Below, one piece after another: positions 39,474 through 48,324 of a stretch of DNA of 64,000 nucleotides. This DNA comes from Phaeodactylibacter xiamenensis (GTDB lineage Bacteria; Bacteroidota; Bacteroidia; Chitinophagales; Saprospiraceae). The stretch is from contig NZ_JPOS01000034.1 of the NCBI RefSeq assembly GCF_000759025.1, positions 124,001 to 188,000 on the forward strand. The letters are read 5' to 3'. Both the position numbers and the translations under genes were made by a program. Below the pieces are notes generated by a model. That model was not told where the DNA came from. It saw only the letters and a program-made list of their open reading frames with translations, and did not search any database. How positions within the stretch are numbered: the stretch's first letter is position 1; each line of letters opens with the position of its first letter.

Positions 39474-40505
39474 TTACTCAAACTCCACCAGTGCCCGGAA
39501 TAGCCGCTCGTTTTCTTCCGGCGTTCCCACGGTGATGCGCAGGCAGCCCTCGCACAGCGTCACCCGGGAGCGGTCCCGCACGATGATACCCCGGTCTACG
39601 AGGTAGTTGTAAATGCCGGTCGGGTCCTCCACTTTTACAAGCAGGAAGTTGGCATCAGAAGGGTAGATACGCTCCGCGAAAGGCAGCCCGCCCAGGTATT
39701 GCTGCAGCAGGGTACGCTGACCAAGCAGTTGCTTTACTTGTGCTTCCTGTGCTTCCTGTTTGTCTAAAGCCTTTAATGCTGCCTCTTGGGTCAGTTGGTT
39801 GATATTGTAAGGGGGCTTCACTTTATTGAAATACCCAATGATCTCTTCAGAGGCAAAAGCCATACCCAGCCGTATGCCTGCCATGCCCCAGGCCTTGGAA
39901 AAGGTTTGCAGGACAACAAGATTGGAATATTCCGGTAGCAGGCGGATAGCACTTTCCTGAGCAGAGAAGTCAATATAAGCTTCATCCACCACCACAATCC
40001 CCGGGAAGCCTTTTGTGAGTTCCCGGATCAGCCCGGGGCGAATGCTGTTGCCGGTCGGGTTGTTGGGGCTGCAGATGAACAGCAGTTTGGAATGGGCATC
40101 GGCTTCAGCCAGCACCGCCTCAACATCCGGCTGAAAACTACCCGGGCGCAGAGGGATTTCCTTCACCGCCACATTGGAAATGTCAGCGGATACCCGGTAC
40201 ATGCCGTAGGTAGGTGGCAGGATGATGATGTGGTCGGCCCCGGGCTCACAAAAAATCCGGAGCAGCAGGTCAATCGCTTCGTCACTGCCATTGCCGAGGA
40301 AGATGTGCTCCGGGGCAATGCCTTTGAGGGTACTGATGGCCTGTTTGAGCTTCCACTGCAAGGGGTCCGGGTAGCGGTTGTAGCCGGTCTCATACGGGCT
40401 TTCGTTGGCATCCAAAAAGACCTCGGCCTTCCCTTTGAACTCCGAACGGGCAGAGGAGTAGGGGGTGAGGCGGTTGATGTTGGGGCGGACTAGGTTTTGT
40501 ATCAT
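39474..40505 (-). CDS. hisC: Histidinol-phosphate aminotransferase
   Basis: It is a PLP enzyme of histidine synthesis. The Lys that binds PLP is in the motif QTFSKAWGMAGIRLGMAF, and the fold-type I Asp/Tyr motif VVVDEAYIDFS and SPNNPTGN are present. The length of 343 residues is usual. It lies on the same strand as hisD and hisG but is separated from hisD by about 1 kb that carries a plus-strand toxin-antitoxin pair. Whether transcription from the his leader still reaches it is unknown. Confidence 0.95.
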   Translation of the reverse strand: MIQNLVRPNINRLTPYSSARSEFKGKAEVFLDANESPYETGYNRYPDPLQWKLKQAISTLKGIAPEHIFLGNGSDEAIDLLLRIFCEPGADHIIILPPTYGMYRVSADISNVAVKEIPLRPGSFQPDVEAVLAEADAHSKLLFICSPNNPTGNSIRPGLIRELTKGFPGIVVVDEAYIDFSAQESAIRLLPEYSNLVVLQTFSKAWGMAGIRLGMAFASEEIIGYFNKVKPPYNINQLTQEAALKALDKQEAQEAQVKQLLGQRTLLQQYLGGLPFAERIYPSDANFLLVKVEDPTGIYNYLVDRGIIVRDRSRVTLCEGCLRITVGTPEENERLFRALVEFE

Positions 40506-40548
40506 AGGAACTTTTGTTGTATTTTGTATTGTTCTTAAAGAAAAACGA

Positions 40549-40809
40549 ATGACAGTAAAAACTGATCGGCTTCAACTTATTGCTTTGATCGCCTCAACGG
40601 AGGACGAGCAACTTATTACTGAATTGAAAGAAACTGCTGAGCGCCGAAAAGTCTTACAATATTTCAGTGAACCTACTCGCACCTATATTTCCGTGGAAGA
40701 ACTTGCTCAGGAACAAAATTACAACCTGCGAGAGGTGCTTTCCGCCAGGGGGGCTTTAGATATAGATGGAGAAGAGTATTCTGAATTATTAAGGCTTCTG
40801 GAAGAATGA
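40549..40809 (+). CDS. Antitoxin-like protein of a PIN toxin pair
   Basis: From ATG 40549 the product has 86 residues, with an acidic, helical composition and the stretch FSEPTRTYISVEELAQEQNY in its middle. Its end overlaps the start of the PIN-domain gene by 4 nt, the normal spacing of type II toxin-antitoxin pairs. I infer an antitoxin role from that arrangement; there is no clear DNA-binding motif. An in-frame ATG at 40465 overlaps hisC and is less likely. The frame is intact although its toxin partner is broken. Confidence 0.65.
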   Translation: MTVKTDRLQLIALIASTEDEQLITELKETAERRKVLQYFSEPTRTYISVEELAQEQNYNLREVLSARGALDIDGEEYSELLRLLEE

Positions 40810-41267
40810 TATTATTGTTTGACACGAATCTCATTCTTGATTTTCTCCGGGATGGTGCAATTACTGCAGCTATTGATGAACAGTTCAATTTGAGTGCTGC
40901 TTCTGGTATTCTTGCCATTTCAGTGGTGTCAATAGGAGAATTGAATGCTTTGGCGTTAAAACGGAATTGGGGACCTAAACGAGTAGAAAGCATATACCAC
41001 GAATTAAATAAGTTTTTAGTCATTCCCATTAATAGTAAAGATGTCCTTCGATTGTATGGTGAAATTGATGCATTTAGTCAGGGCAAACTAAAAGGTCAAC
41101 CTCTCCCTGCCGGTTTGTAATCCCGTAATATGGGTAAAAATGATCTTTGGATTGCTGCATCAGCTGCAGCCACTGGAGCTACCCTACTGACAACAGATAA
41201 GGACTTTAAGCACCTGGAAGGAGTTTTCATAAAACATCAATATTACGCACCACAAGATTATCTTTAA
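40806..41267 (+). pseudogene. PIN-domain (VapC-like) toxin interrupted by an in-frame stop
   Basis: The N-terminal part (104 residues) carries the PIN acidic motifs LFDTNLILDFL and VVSIGELNAL. A TAA at 41118-41120 stops it after LPAGL. The same frame then continues without a break to a natural stop at 41265: residues NDLWIAASAAATGATLLTTDKDF hold the remaining conserved Asp residues of the PIN active site. A single base change to TAA explains the break, since no frameshift is needed. The stop removes part of the active site, so the toxin is probably inactive, barring a sequence error or read-through. Confidence 0.8.
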
Positions 41268-41522: not shown

Positions 41523-42812
41523 TTACGCTTTCTCCTCCAACCGAACCGCCACCGCCCGGGCATGCGCCATCAGTTCCTCCGCTTCAGCCATGCGTTGTAC
41601 CGCAGGCCCGAGCCCCTGCAGCCCCTCCCGGCTTAGCTCCTGAAAAGTGATCTTTTTGATAAAGCTGTCGAGCGAGACTCCGCTGTAGCTGCGGGCGTAC
41701 CCATCCGTTGGCAGGGTGTGGTTGGTACCGGAAGCGTAATCGCCTACCGACTCCGGGGTGTAGTGCCCCAGAAATACCGAGCCGGCGTTCAGGATTTGTT
41801 CGCCCATCTCTCCGGCATCCGCCACGGAAAGGATAAGGTGCTCGGGGGCATAGGCATTGATGAGTTCCACCGCTGCTGCCCGGTCTTCGAGCACTATGGT
41901 TACACTGTGGCTCAGTGCTTCTTTGGCTATGTCCCGCCTGGGCAATGTGGCGAGCTGGGCTTCCACTGCTTCGGCTACTGCTTTGGCCATTGTTTCCGAA
42001 AGGGTGACGAGCACCACCTGACTGTCGATGCCGTGTTCTGCCTGTGAAAGGAGGTCGGCCGCGACGAATACCGGGTTGGCCGTATCGTCGGCGCAAACGA
42101 GCACCTCCGAGGGGCCGGCAGGCATATCAATGGCTACACCACGCCGGCTGGCCAGCTGCTTGGCGGCGGTCACGTACTGATTGCCGGGGCCAAAGATTTT
42201 GTAGACGGAGGATACAGTCGCTGTGCCGTAAGTCATGGCCCCAATGGCCTGTGCACCACCGATCTTGAAAATCTGCGTAATGCCTACGAGGTCTGCGGTG
42301 TAGAGAATGGCAGGGTTGACTTTGCCGTTTTTATCAGGAGGCGTGCATAAAATCCGCTCCCGGCAACCGGCAATCGTTGCAGGGACGCCGAGCATAAGCA
42401 CCGCAGAAAACAGGGGCGCCGTACCACCGGGTATGTACAACCCGACTTTTTCAATGGGCACACTTTTGCGCCAGCAGCGCACGCCTGGCATGGTTTCCAC
42501 TGCTTCCACCGGTTCCCACTGCCGGGCGTGGAAGGTTTCAATATTCGTTCGGGCGAGTTGGATGGCGGCTTTGAGCTCAGGCGCAAGTGTGGCCCGGGCT
42601 TCCGCAATCTCCGCTTCGCTGACACGAAAATCGTCAAGGCGTACACCATCGAAACGTTCGGTGTATTCCCGCACGGCTTCATCTCCGCGCTGTTCGATAT
42701 CAGCGAGGACCCCGCCCACTATTTTATCGAGGTCGGCCGCTGCCATCGTAGGGCGGCGGAGGAGGTCGCCCCAGGTGTCCGGAGCCGGGTTGAGGTAGGT
42801 TTTCATCTGCAT
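41523..42812 (-). CDS. hisD: Histidinol dehydrogenase
   Basis: It oxidises histidinol to histidine in two steps, using NAD and zinc. The family signature is clear: IFGPGNQYVTAAKQL, IDMPAGPSEVLV, DLLSQAEHG and the C-terminal GPAVQRMAEAE. The length of 429 residues is normal. Its ATG overlaps the hisG stop (TAATG), so translation is coupled. After it the operon is interrupted by the plus-strand toxin-antitoxin region. Confidence 0.97.
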   Translation of the reverse strand: MQMKTYLNPAPDTWGDLLRRPTMAAADLDKIVGGVLADIEQRGDEAVREYTERFDGVRLDDFRVSEAEIAEARATLAPELKAAIQLARTNIETFHARQWEPVEAVETMPGVRCWRKSVPIEKVGLYIPGGTAPLFSAVLMLGVPATIAGCRERILCTPPDKNGKVNPAILYTADLVGITQIFKIGGAQAIGAMTYGTATVSSVYKIFGPGNQYVTAAKQLASRRGVAIDMPAGPSEVLVCADDTANPVFVAADLLSQAEHGIDSQVVLVTLSETMAKAVAEAVEAQLATLPRRDIAKEALSHSVTIVLEDRAAAVELINAYAPEHLILSVADAGEMGEQILNAGSVFLGHYTPESVGDYASGTNHTLPTDGYARSYSGVSLDSFIKKITFQELSREGLQGLGPAVQRMAEAEELMAHARAVAVRLEEKA

Positions 42813-43675
42813 TACAAAATCATTTTTTCGATGGGAATAACTAAGATGCCTTCCGCACCGGCAGCTTTGAGCTGATCGATGATTTCCCAGAATTGGGATT
42901 CATCAATTACGGTGTGGATGGAGTTCCAGCCCGAGGCTGCGAGGGGCATCACTGTGGGGCTCTTCATGCCTGGCAGGATGTTGATGATGGCTTCCGTTTG
43001 GCTGGCGGGGGCGTTCATCAGAATGTATTTGTTGTTGCGGGCTTTGAGCACCGACTGTATGCGGAACACAATCTGATCCAGGATGGCTTGTTTGCCCGCA
43101 GAAAGCTGTGTATTCCTGACGATACAGGCTTCCGATTTCAGGATGACCTCTTTCTCTTCCAGCCCATTTTTAAAGAGCGTGCTGCCGGAACTGACGAGGT
43201 CGCAAATGGCATCTGCCAGCCCGATATTGGGTGCAATCTCCACCGATCCGGAAATCTCGTGAATCTCCGCTTCGATTTGGTGCTTAGCCATAAACTGCCG
43301 CAGGGAATTGGGATAGGAGGTGGCAATGCGCTTGCCGTTGAGCCATTCCGGTCCGGGATAAGGCGTATTCTTGGGTAGGGCAATGGACAGCCGGCATTTA
43401 GAGAAGCCGAGGGGCAGCACTTCTTCGATTTGCTTTTGCTTTTCGACGAGGGTATTTTGGCCCAGAATGCCAATATCGGCTACCCCGTCCTGCACGTACT
43501 GCGGGATATCAGAATTGCGCAGGTACAGAATGTCTATGGGGTAGTTGCTGGCCGAGGCTTTCAGCTGGTCTTTGCCGTTGTTGACCCGGATGCCGCACTC
43601 TTTGAGCAGTTCCAGAGAACCATCCAACAGGCGGCCGGATTTTTGAACAGCGATTTTCAAACGTGTGTCTGACAT
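42812..43675 (-). CDS. hisG: ATP phosphoribosyltransferase, long form
   Basis: It catalyses the first, feedback-controlled step of histidine synthesis, joining ATP and PRPP. The 287-residue length and a C-terminal regulatory domain (about 215-287, with GMKSPTVMPLAASGW) mark the long form that does not need HisZ. The catalytic part shows LKIAVQKSGRL, ADIGILGQNTLVEK and the PRPP-loop region VSSGSTLFKNGL. It is the first structural gene after the leader peptide and attenuator. Confidence 0.96.
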   Translation of the reverse strand: MSDTRLKIAVQKSGRLLDGSLELLKECGIRVNNGKDQLKASASNYPIDILYLRNSDIPQYVQDGVADIGILGQNTLVEKQKQIEEVLPLGFSKCRLSIALPKNTPYPGPEWLNGKRIATSYPNSLRQFMAKHQIEAEIHEISGSVEIAPNIGLADAICDLVSSGSTLFKNGLEEKEVILKSEACIVRNTQLSAGKQAILDQIVFRIQSVLKARNNKYILMNAPASQTEAIINILPGMKSPTVMPLAASGWNSIHTVIDESQFWEIIDQLKAAGAEGILVIPIEKMIL

Positions 43676-43700
43676 AGTAAACGCGAGGGTTGTGGTGAAA

Positions 43701-43739
43701 CAAAAAAAGAGGTTAACCAGCGAATGGTTAACCTCTTTT
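43701..43739 (-). terminator. Attenuator terminator upstream of hisG
   Basis: A perfect 14-bp inverted repeat (43705-43718 with 43726-43739, core gaggttaacc) has a 7-nt loop and is followed on the minus strand by seven U residues (43708-43702). It lies 32 nt after the His-rich leader frame and 26 nt before the hisG start, which is where a his attenuator belongs. A second hairpin, cactgc-ccg-gcagtg (43792-43806), overlaps the leader frame just after the His codons and could be the pausing structure. Confidence 0.85.
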
Positions 43740-43771
43740 GTGGACTAAAGTTGATCAATCAACGGTTCATC

Positions 43772-43846
43772 TCACACACGATTCCACCATTCACTGCCGG
43801 GCAGTGGGAAATGATGTACGTGATGATGCCAGTTGTTGATAATCAT
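43772..43846 (-). CDS. hisL: His leader peptide (attenuation sensor)
   Basis: A 24-codon frame starts at ATG 43846 and ends at TGA 43774-43772. Residues 6-12 read WHHHVHH, five histidines within six positions (7-12). With the terminator hairpin that follows and hisG after that, this is the layout of a transcription-attenuation leader. When charged tRNA-His is scarce, a ribosome stalled at the His codons should prevent the terminator from forming. The mechanism is inferred from other his operons; no alternative antiterminator pairing was worked out here. Confidence 0.85.
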   Translation of the reverse strand: MIINNWHHHVHHFPLPGSEWWNRV

Positions 43847-43854
43847 AAGTTGTT

Positions 43855-43886
43855 AAATAAGAAAAGCAGCCTTTTGAGCTGCTTTC
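43855..43886 (-). terminator. Hairpin after tRNA-Phe, probable terminator
   Basis: An 8-bp stem (aaagcagc at 43863-43870 with gctgcttt at 43878-43885) and 7-nt loop is followed on the minus strand by the T-rich ttcttattt. It lies just downstream of the tRNA and just upstream of the his leader ATG. Confidence 0.6.
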
Positions 43887-43891
43887 CGAAG

Positions 43892-43964
43892 TGGTGTGGG
43901 GCGGATTCGAACCGCCGACACATGGATTTTCAGTCCATTGCTCTACCACCTGAGCTACCGCACC
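43892..43964 (-). tRNA. tRNA-Phe (GAA)
   Basis: The 73-nt gene folds into a standard cloverleaf. The anticodon loop CTGAAAA sits on the stem ATGGA/TCCAT, giving anticodon GAA. The T arm is GGCGG-TTCGAAT-CCGCC and the D arm is GCTC...GAGC. The acceptor arms GGTGCGG and CCACACC pair except for a C-A mismatch at 5-68. The 3' CCA is not encoded. Confidence 0.93.
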
Positions 43965-44001
43965 TTAGTTGTGACATTTTTTGCTAATCCTGCTCCTGTA
44001 A

Positions 44002-44182
44002 AAAAAATTGAAATACTCATCTTCGCTATCGCTTCATTCGCATTTCAATTTTGTCGCAGGCTTACGCAAAAACTGGGTTTATACAATTTTCGCTACCCCG
44101 CTCTTTTGAAGAAAATAAAATACTCACCTTCGCTATTGCTACGTTCGCATTTTATTTTCGCCGCGGGCTTGACGCAAAAATT
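44002..44182 (-). repeat. Two copies of a covarying hairpin element
   Basis: Two units share a 27-nt loop with 23 of 27 identical bases (44015-44041 and 44122-44148). They are closed by different but fully paired stems: aaattgaaat/atttcaattt in one (44005-44014 with 44042-44051), and gaaaataaaat/attttattttc in the other (44111-44121 with 44149-44159). A similar 20-nt flank follows each on the plus strand (gtcgcaggcttacgcaaaaa and gccgcgggcttgacgcaaaa). The frame is not convincingly coding. Confidence 0.7.
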
Positions 44183-44246
44183 GAAAATTGCAAAAACACT
44201 TTTCAAGTTATTTTGATCAGCCACCGCTTTCGGTGTTTTGCGGTTG

Positions 44247-44277
44247 CAAATATAAGCGCGATATCCATACTGCGCAA
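44247..44277 (-). promoter_or_regulatory. Near-consensus promoter reading toward the hairpin repeats and tRNA-Phe
   Basis: On the minus strand TTG (44277-44275), a 20-nt spacer and a perfect TATATTTG (44254-44247) match the consensus. Transcription would pass a short hairpin (caccg-aaag-cggtg, 44222-44235), the two repeat hairpins, tRNA-Phe and then the his leader. Confidence 0.65.
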
Positions 44278-47916: not shown

Positions 47917-48127
47917 CCTGCCGGTTTTGGAGCCTGAAGGGCAGGGCAAGAGCGGATAATGGGGCATTGTGTGGGTGAACGGACAAAAGAAGGTGCAGGA
48001 AATTCTTACACACCTGCGTTTGTTAAGCCGTACGCTTGCCCTTACGTAGAGAACAGGCCAGCGGTACCCATTAGGCCCAATAAGCACTCCATCCCTGCTT
48101 TTCCTCCGAAAGCCCGAATGAATTAAA

Positions 48128-48312
48128 TCTTGCCTGGCAGGTCTTCTGGCTTGCTTCTGCATTTGCGGCCTTCCCATCATCTCCCGACAGTGGCTTAGTG
48201 CGCAAAGGGCATTTTTTGTGAAGCTTACAGCAGCGGGGACTGCTCAGGATTTGCACCTGATTCCCTTTTAAACGAAGGCCATCGTCACAGACATAGCATT
48301 CGTACCAAAGCT
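48128..48312 (-). ncRNA. Cobalamin riboswitch
   Basis: On the minus strand the order of conserved elements is right: AAAGGGAATCAGGTGCAAATCC, GAGCAGTCCCCGCTGCTGTAAG, GCCACTG, GGGAAGGCC, and the B12 box AGCCAGAAGACCTGCC (48153-48138). It is known to bind adenosylcobalamin or related corrinoids and turn off downstream genes. About 210 nt separate it from the receptor ATG. Confidence 0.95.
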
Positions 48313-48316
48313 GGCG

Positions 48317-48324
48317 CAAAGGTA
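48317..48324 (-). promoter_or_regulatory. Promoter -7 box of the riboswitch operon
   Basis: A perfect TACCTTTG on the minus strand places the transcript start near 48310, right at the first riboswitch element. The -33 region, at about 48346, is TTAAC and only weakly matches TTG. Confidence 0.5.

Follow-up and report, generated by a model that had tools for sequence, protein, structure and literature searches.

The analysed stretch of DNA (here called the window) is 64,000 nt long and carries on its minus strand, read towards hisG, a tRNA-Phe gene, a short His-rich frame, an intrinsic terminator and the genes hisG and hisD (Table 1). The preliminary description had reported the 24-codon frame with five His among codons 7 to 12, a perfect 14-bp terminator hairpin with U7 and a hisG start 26 nt past the hairpin end at 43701. 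Coordinates and counts proved right, the downstream gene has HisG and HisG_C domains by Pfam, and the hairpin (AAAAGAGGTTAACCA-TTCGC-TGGTTAACCTCTTTT) reaches 15 perfect pairs when the outer A-U pairs are included. Both operon genes, identified by TIGR00070 and Pfam, serve histidine synthesis, which matches the His codons of the leader, and the hisD ATG shares one base with the hisG stop. The tRNA-Phe gene does not encode CCA and gave a single match in the window's own genome, where alone its copy number was checked. A promoter ahead of it would place the transcription start near 44242. Two direct repeats sit between this likely promoter and the tRNA; a query with one repeat against the same genome at E 0.001 gave the locus 44002-44170 as its sole match. 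On the opposite strand between hisD and hisC (40465-41120, +) lie a short protein without Pfam match, which overlaps the hisC end, and a protein resembling PIN domains, whose Pfam PIN match (E 0.0003) reaches 21.9 bits where the curated cut-off is 23.6. They possibly form a VapBC-like pair inside the his cluster.

Table 1. Features around the his leader of the window, in reading direction.
Feature	Position	Strand	Details
Likely sigma-A promoter of the tRNA-Phe/his unit	44247-44277	-	TTG 44277-44275, 20-nt spacer, TATATTTG 44254-44247
Two 62-nt direct repeats	44002-44063, 44109-44170	-	81% identical, spacing 107
tRNA-Phe	43892-43964	-	Rfam tRNA, 69.3 bits; ARAGORN call tRNA-Phe
10-bp hairpin and U-rich tract between tRNA and leader	43862-43886	-	Folding, hairpin script
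his leader peptide frame	43772-43846	-	24 codons, MIINNWHHHVHHFPLPGSEWWNRV and stop
Regulatory codons CAT CAT CAC GTA CAT CAT	43811-43828	-	His 7-9 and 11-12
Protector/pause hairpin (segments 1:2)	43785-43816	-	43816-43801 with 43797-43785, minimum-energy fold
Predicted antiterminator 5' strand (segment 2)	43786-43796	-	CAGTGAATGGT, pairs with 43728-43718
Predicted antiterminator 3' strand (segment 3)	43718-43728	-	ACCATTCGCTG, pairs with segment 2
Intrinsic terminator (segments 3:4)	43705-43739	-	15 bp, loop TTCGC; U7 at 43708-43702
hisG, ATP phosphoribosyltransferase, long form with C-terminal domain	42812-43675	-	TIGR00070, 200.5 bits; Pfam HisG, HisG_C
hisD, histidinol dehydrogenase, next operon gene	41523-42812	-	Pfam Histidinol_dh, E 5e-169

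The leader region can fold in two ways. The cactgc/gcagtg stem after the His codons, which had been proposed as a pause hairpin, exists and extends as CAUCAUU...AAUGGUG over the last two His codons; it forms the protector. Folding the leader for an antiterminator, suggested as a check in the preliminary description, yielded a pairing of 43796-43786 with 43728-43718 (11 bp, one G-U). Its 3' strand consists of the end of the terminator 5' arm, the loop and the first two letters of the 3' arm, the terminator arms being 43739-43725 and 43719-43705. Protector, antiterminator and terminator share letters, and in silico the antiterminator excludes both of the others: when folding starts at the last His codons, protector and terminator form together, and when the end of the terminator 3' arm is still missing, the antiterminator forms. 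The 206-nt region 43900-43695, to which the tRNA-adjacent hairpin contributes a share of the energy, folds at -66.9 kcal/mol against -42.4 for shuffled sequences (sd 4.3, n=200; z -5.7), none of which was as low. The window fold also paired the leader start over a long range with the region ahead of the terminator; this helix was dropped because L003 lacks the pairing letters (by eye).

Conservation of the leader was examined in 199 genomes of the window's family, 122 of which have hisG; adding the window to the 118 loci taken gave 119, of which 116 offered 250 nt or more upstream of hisG. A short frame with at least three His in seven codons within 420 nt upstream of hisG was present in 106 of these 116 loci (73 of 77 genera), compared with 12/116 on the antisense strand and 10/114 further upstream. 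Since other residues are also common at this threshold (Leu 74, Ile 59, Ser 59, Phe 58 and Lys 52 of 116), specificity for His is judged by the stricter requirement of at least four in seven, which gave 96/116 for His, followed by Ser with 26 and Ile with 25; the controls fell to 2/116 antisense and 2/114 further upstream. Ten loci have no called leader: visual inspection showed a weaker His frame in L124, L126 and L203 and none in six others, and L139 consists mostly of N. The family leaders write their His residues as 458 CAT and 75 CAC, and the rest of the peptide is variable. A strictly called terminator accompanies 87 of the 106 leaders, and 19 are without such a call.

A scan of named genomes, some of which also occur in the family sample so that the two sets are not independent, found at least three His in seven codons at most 600 nt upstream of hisG in 78 of the 80 loci kept, in genera such as Phaeodactylibacter, Portibacter, Chryseobacterium, Psychroflexus, Sediminibacterium and Pseudochryseolinea. 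The preliminary description had named relatives that keep the hairpin and lose the His codons as the case that would speak against attenuation; in both samples the His codons are conserved. One of the two exceptions, L017, starts 36 nt from hisG. The other, L005, keeps tRNA-Phe and the attenuator terminator and has no leader frame, which makes it either a natural leaderless case or an assembly fault. Two tandem leader-terminator units precede hisG in L171 (G161) and L067, and in L171 the first unit lies between tRNA-Phe and the second leader. At the level of the order, the leader was present in 25 of the 29 orientable loci among the best 30 (one of the 29 being a family member), and no tRNA gene was found in the 900 nt upstream in those 29.

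The pairing of the antiterminator arms was compared across the 87 loci (62 genera) with leader and strictly called terminator, with the search for segment 2 set to start 6 nt past the last His codon. Mean pairing of segment 2 with the terminator arm was -15.9 kcal/mol for a locus's own arms, -11.0 for arms swapped in from other genera and -9.3 for shuffled segment 2. The own pairing beat at least 95% of 200 shuffles in 62/87 loci and did not in the other 25; against swapped arms, which related genera share, its median rank was 12%. At one end of the range of arms stand the saprospirs with GGCAAATGGTG/TACCATTTGCC, at the other the flavobacteria-like leaders with CTCAGGCG/CGTCTGAG. For the 41 arms alignable on ACC over 7 columns, 76% of cells pair compared with 57% when partners are shuffled among loci, and double-sided changes number 58 compared with 22.7, although this column test has a built-in preference for pairing, the criterion by which segment 2 had been placed. 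In 1000 shuffles neither value was reached, and the picture was the same with one row per genus (n=29). The energy test is the fairer control, since its shuffles are re-optimised. The antiterminator arms thus vary together across loci.

The position of segment 2 relative to the coding part of the leader fits a control by ribosomes. In the window it begins 13-14 nt past the last His codon. Ribosomes cover about 12 nt ahead and 17 nt behind, and with a footprint of this assumed size at the leader stop codon, segment 2 falls within it in 82 of the 87 loci.

The tRNA-Phe gene is a recurrent neighbour of the leader. A tRNA gene was found upstream in 34 of the 106 family leader loci, tRNA-Phe every time, and none in the other 72; ARAGORN called tRNA-Phe(GAA) in 17 of the 34 named loci tested, and the anticodon in L002 is GAA. 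In 23 family loci of 16 genera the two are fused, with the leader ATG (as chosen by the script) 0-26 nt past the tRNA, and in G068 the leader AUG lies almost directly behind it. Flavilitoribacter nigricans DSM 23189 is a named strain with the fused layout. At such spacing a terminator would hardly fit, or not at all, and none was called between tRNA and leader in the 23 loci. Promoters were scored against the consensus TTG-N20-TAnnTTTG, with a maximum of 9. The strict TAnnTTTG box occurs within 60 nt before the leader ATG in 0/23 fused loci compared with 49/72 loci without tRNA (Fisher p 1e-9, uncorrected for kinship) and 3/11 loci with a distant tRNA. A score of at least 7 was found just before the leader in 67 of the 72 loci without tRNA, compared with 657 of 2120 shuffles. 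The gap of fused loci scores at most 6. In the 110 nt ahead of their tRNA the top score is 9 for 20/23, 8 for two and 7 for one; these promoter-like sites lie 26-67 nt before the tRNA in all 23. A promoter within the tRNA or the gap of fused loci was considered as well and rejected, as the best sites there score 6-7 of 9, with 8/23 at 7, near the rate of shuffled sequences at this threshold.

With a fused layout, no promoter in the gap and one ahead of the tRNA, the leader would most simply be transcribed from the tRNA-Phe promoter, and since no terminator intervenes, the attenuator would be the first terminator after the tRNA. The layout in these 23 relatives strongly suggests this origin of the leader transcript, and the attenuator there probably doubles as the tRNA terminator. 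More generally, we lean towards the view that in many Saprospiria tRNA-Phe and the his operon form one transcription unit, in which the tRNA promoter would drive hisG, the attenuator would end the essential tRNA and the leader mRNA would get its 5' end, 0-26 nt before the AUG, from 3' processing of the tRNA. If true, histidine supply would decide only whether the tRNA transcript continues, and his expression would therefore be tied to stable-RNA control. In the 11 loci with a distant tRNA the gap is 44-209 nt, and a terminator-like hairpin was called in 7 of them; the three with a strict box near the leader are L129, L188 and L198, from the genomes of L019, L016 and L020. A HisG tree has one well-supported branch (99/97) of 36 rows, and the tRNA is present in 32 of these. 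A single origin of the fused state was considered and dropped: we claim no single fusion event because the tree needs 9 changes for this label, at least 3 of them forced by well-supported branches.

A hairpin stands between tRNA and leader in the window's genus, and for this reason we grade the coupling there below that of the fused relatives. Phaeodactylibacter luteus KCTC 42180 is a named strain with this hairpin layout. The gap in the window is 44 nt, and the hairpin in it could be a (partial) tRNA terminator or a processing hairpin; a hairpin with altered letters stands at the matching place in L002 and L003 (in L003 by eye, uncalled by the script). A less likely alternative for the window and its genus is that a promoter of a kind other than TTG-N20-TAnnTTTG, located between this hairpin and the leader, serves the attenuator, and that the tRNA is only a neighbour. 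The hairpin and U-rich tract after the tRNA in all three genomes agree with this, and in L016, L019 and L020 the tRNA has its terminator, followed by a TAnnTTTG box ahead of the leader. However, no consensus promoter follows the hairpin in the window gap, where the best score of 6/9 equals the shuffled median and stays below the 7 that most loci without tRNA reach, and L004, L006 and L007, the nearest rows of the HisG tree outside the genus, are fused. Within the 860 nt upstream of hisG there is one strict TAnnTTTG, the sole site with score 9 (44277-44247), which lies 291 nt upstream of the tRNA on the far side of the repeats, and one other site scores 8. The context TATATTTGCAACCGC of this promoter resembles by eye the TA..TTTGC ahead of tRNA-Phe in relatives, and its box lies about 290 nt from the tRNA in the window, 181 nt in L002 and 363 nt in L003. 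The three hairpin-type genomes group together in the HisG tree (100/96), and their link to the adjoining fused relatives is weaker (87/72). Because a local promoter motif was not found, the full-score site lies upstream of the tRNA and the tree neighbours are fused, we favour read-through from the tRNA-Phe promoter, which is the likely source of the leader transcript in the window's genus too.

It is very improbable that the hairpin before hisG merely terminates the tRNA-Phe transcript, with a His-rich frame that arose by chance and a hisG promoter elsewhere. A tRNA gene is indeed present upstream, and the 23 fused relatives have no other terminator called between it and the leader, but the excess of His-rich frames over the antisense strand would then be unaccounted for, 72 of the 106 leader loci have no tRNA gene found upstream, the leader recurs in nearly all named-scan loci, including Chryseobacterium, Portibacter, Psychroflexus and Sediminibacterium, and the antiterminator arms co-vary.

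At gathering score, the Rfam families matched in the whole window were tRNA and a cobalamin riboswitch and no others. The Rfam his-leader RNA family, which is proteobacterial, had no match at gathering score in the region and 10 relatives, nor among the matches listed with E up to 10 for 43600-44000. The nine non-tRNA matches among those listed for 43600-44000 each fell short of the gathering score of their family and were regarded as chance hits. The cobalamin riboswitch (48119-48324, minus strand, 106.6 bits) overlaps the start region of the frame 48180-46039, which has the look of a TonB-dependent receptor (by eye). We hardly credit a leader RNA that binds histidine, a protein or uncharged tRNA directly in the manner of a riboswitch or T-box, with incidental His codons: T-boxes are named besides attenuators for his genes in other phyla in the available part of one source (PMC9413887), but at gathering score Rfam gave nothing except tRNA for the region and 10 relatives, neither a T-box nor his-leader was among the 10 matches listed with E up to 10 for 43600-44000, and the His run is kept as codons while the remaining peptide varies.

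Taken together, the locus is very probably a ribosome-mediated transcription attenuator of the hisG-hisD operon. The attenuation reading of the preliminary description is supported by the conserved His codons, the exclusive and covarying antiterminator and the promoter motif upstream of the leader in relatives (the 49 of 72 loci without tRNA); its attenuator parts were right, and the antiterminator and the upstream tRNA-Phe gene with its likely role in transcription were absent from it. The parts of the attenuator, their mutual exclusivity and their conservation can be read from the sequence, and from them we infer leader translation, stalling, a response to histidine and the start site. In the proposed mechanism the leader transcript would most likely start at the tRNA-Phe promoter and run through the tRNA gene. 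With ample charged His-tRNA, the ribosome would pass the five His codons and reach the stop codon near segment 2, extending into and masking this segment, so that the terminator hairpin would form and RNA polymerase would halt before hisG. When His-tRNA is scarce, the ribosome would stall on the His codons and hide segment 1, the first strand of the protector; segment 2 would then be free to pair with segment 3, no terminator would form and hisG would be transcribed. The His-rich leader and the switchable terminator would probably mean that the enzymes for histidine are made only when histidine runs short.

The organism appears to use this device elsewhere, at trpE. There (L276) a Trp-rich frame, MNSFTSNNWWWWHNRSGDRVK, lies about 220 nt upstream of the match, and a terminator hairpin could be seen by eye behind it. 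For the leuA and ilvD matches of this genome, ATG frames of 8-45 codons were inspected over 360 nt upstream, and none was rich in Leu, Ile or Val; hisF, located elsewhere in the genome, has no His leader within 420 nt upstream.

Attenuation of this type is an already known kind, and the his leader described here belongs to it. The his attenuator of E. coli and Salmonella (hisL) shares with it a His-rich leader peptide, alternative hairpins that include a terminator and a place ahead of hisG. Unlike hisL, the window leader has its antiterminator strand close to the leader stop codon and a tRNA-Phe gene directly upstream, its relatives have a promoter motif of the Bacteroidota type, and homology to the hisL RNA was not detectable in Rfam. 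A comparative study by Vitreschak and others from 2004 reportedly mentions attenuators in Bacteroidetes/Chlorobi. Attenuation ahead of hisG is described for enterobacteria (PMC8305728), a source which covers his genes in this phylum and, in its available part, describes attenuation for enterobacteria only; the available part of another names attenuators for his genes in Proteobacteria (PMC9413887). Closest by phylum is Flavobacterium psychrophilum, for which mapped transcripts gave 'strong clues' for leader-peptide attenuation before amino-acid biosynthesis operons; the available part of that report mentions no tRNA coupling, places the Bacteroidota promoter box at -12 to -5 and reports Shine-Dalgarno sequences to be absent in flavobacteria (PMC9723704). 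In Bacteroides thetaiotaomicron, also of this phylum, small 5' UTR frames reminiscent of leader peptides suggested attenuation, the example in the available part being a hypothetical protein gene rather than his, and not validated (PMC7366714). At the level of titles and abstract openings, the literature yielded no tRNA-coupled his attenuator. The sequence signature of classical his leader-peptide attenuation, with covarying antiterminators, is now documented across a large set of Bacteroidota.

If transcripts confirm it, the coupling to tRNA-Phe would provide a natural example in which an essential tRNA gene is terminated by a regulated attenuator and the 5' end of an mRNA arises from tRNA processing. 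Co-transcription of tRNA genes with protein genes is known from metY-nusA and the tufB tRNA operon of E. coli. In these operons one promoter serves a tRNA and a downstream protein operon, as proposed for the window's relatives. The difference is that here a regulated attenuator, which would terminate the tRNA transcript as well, comes first after the tRNA.
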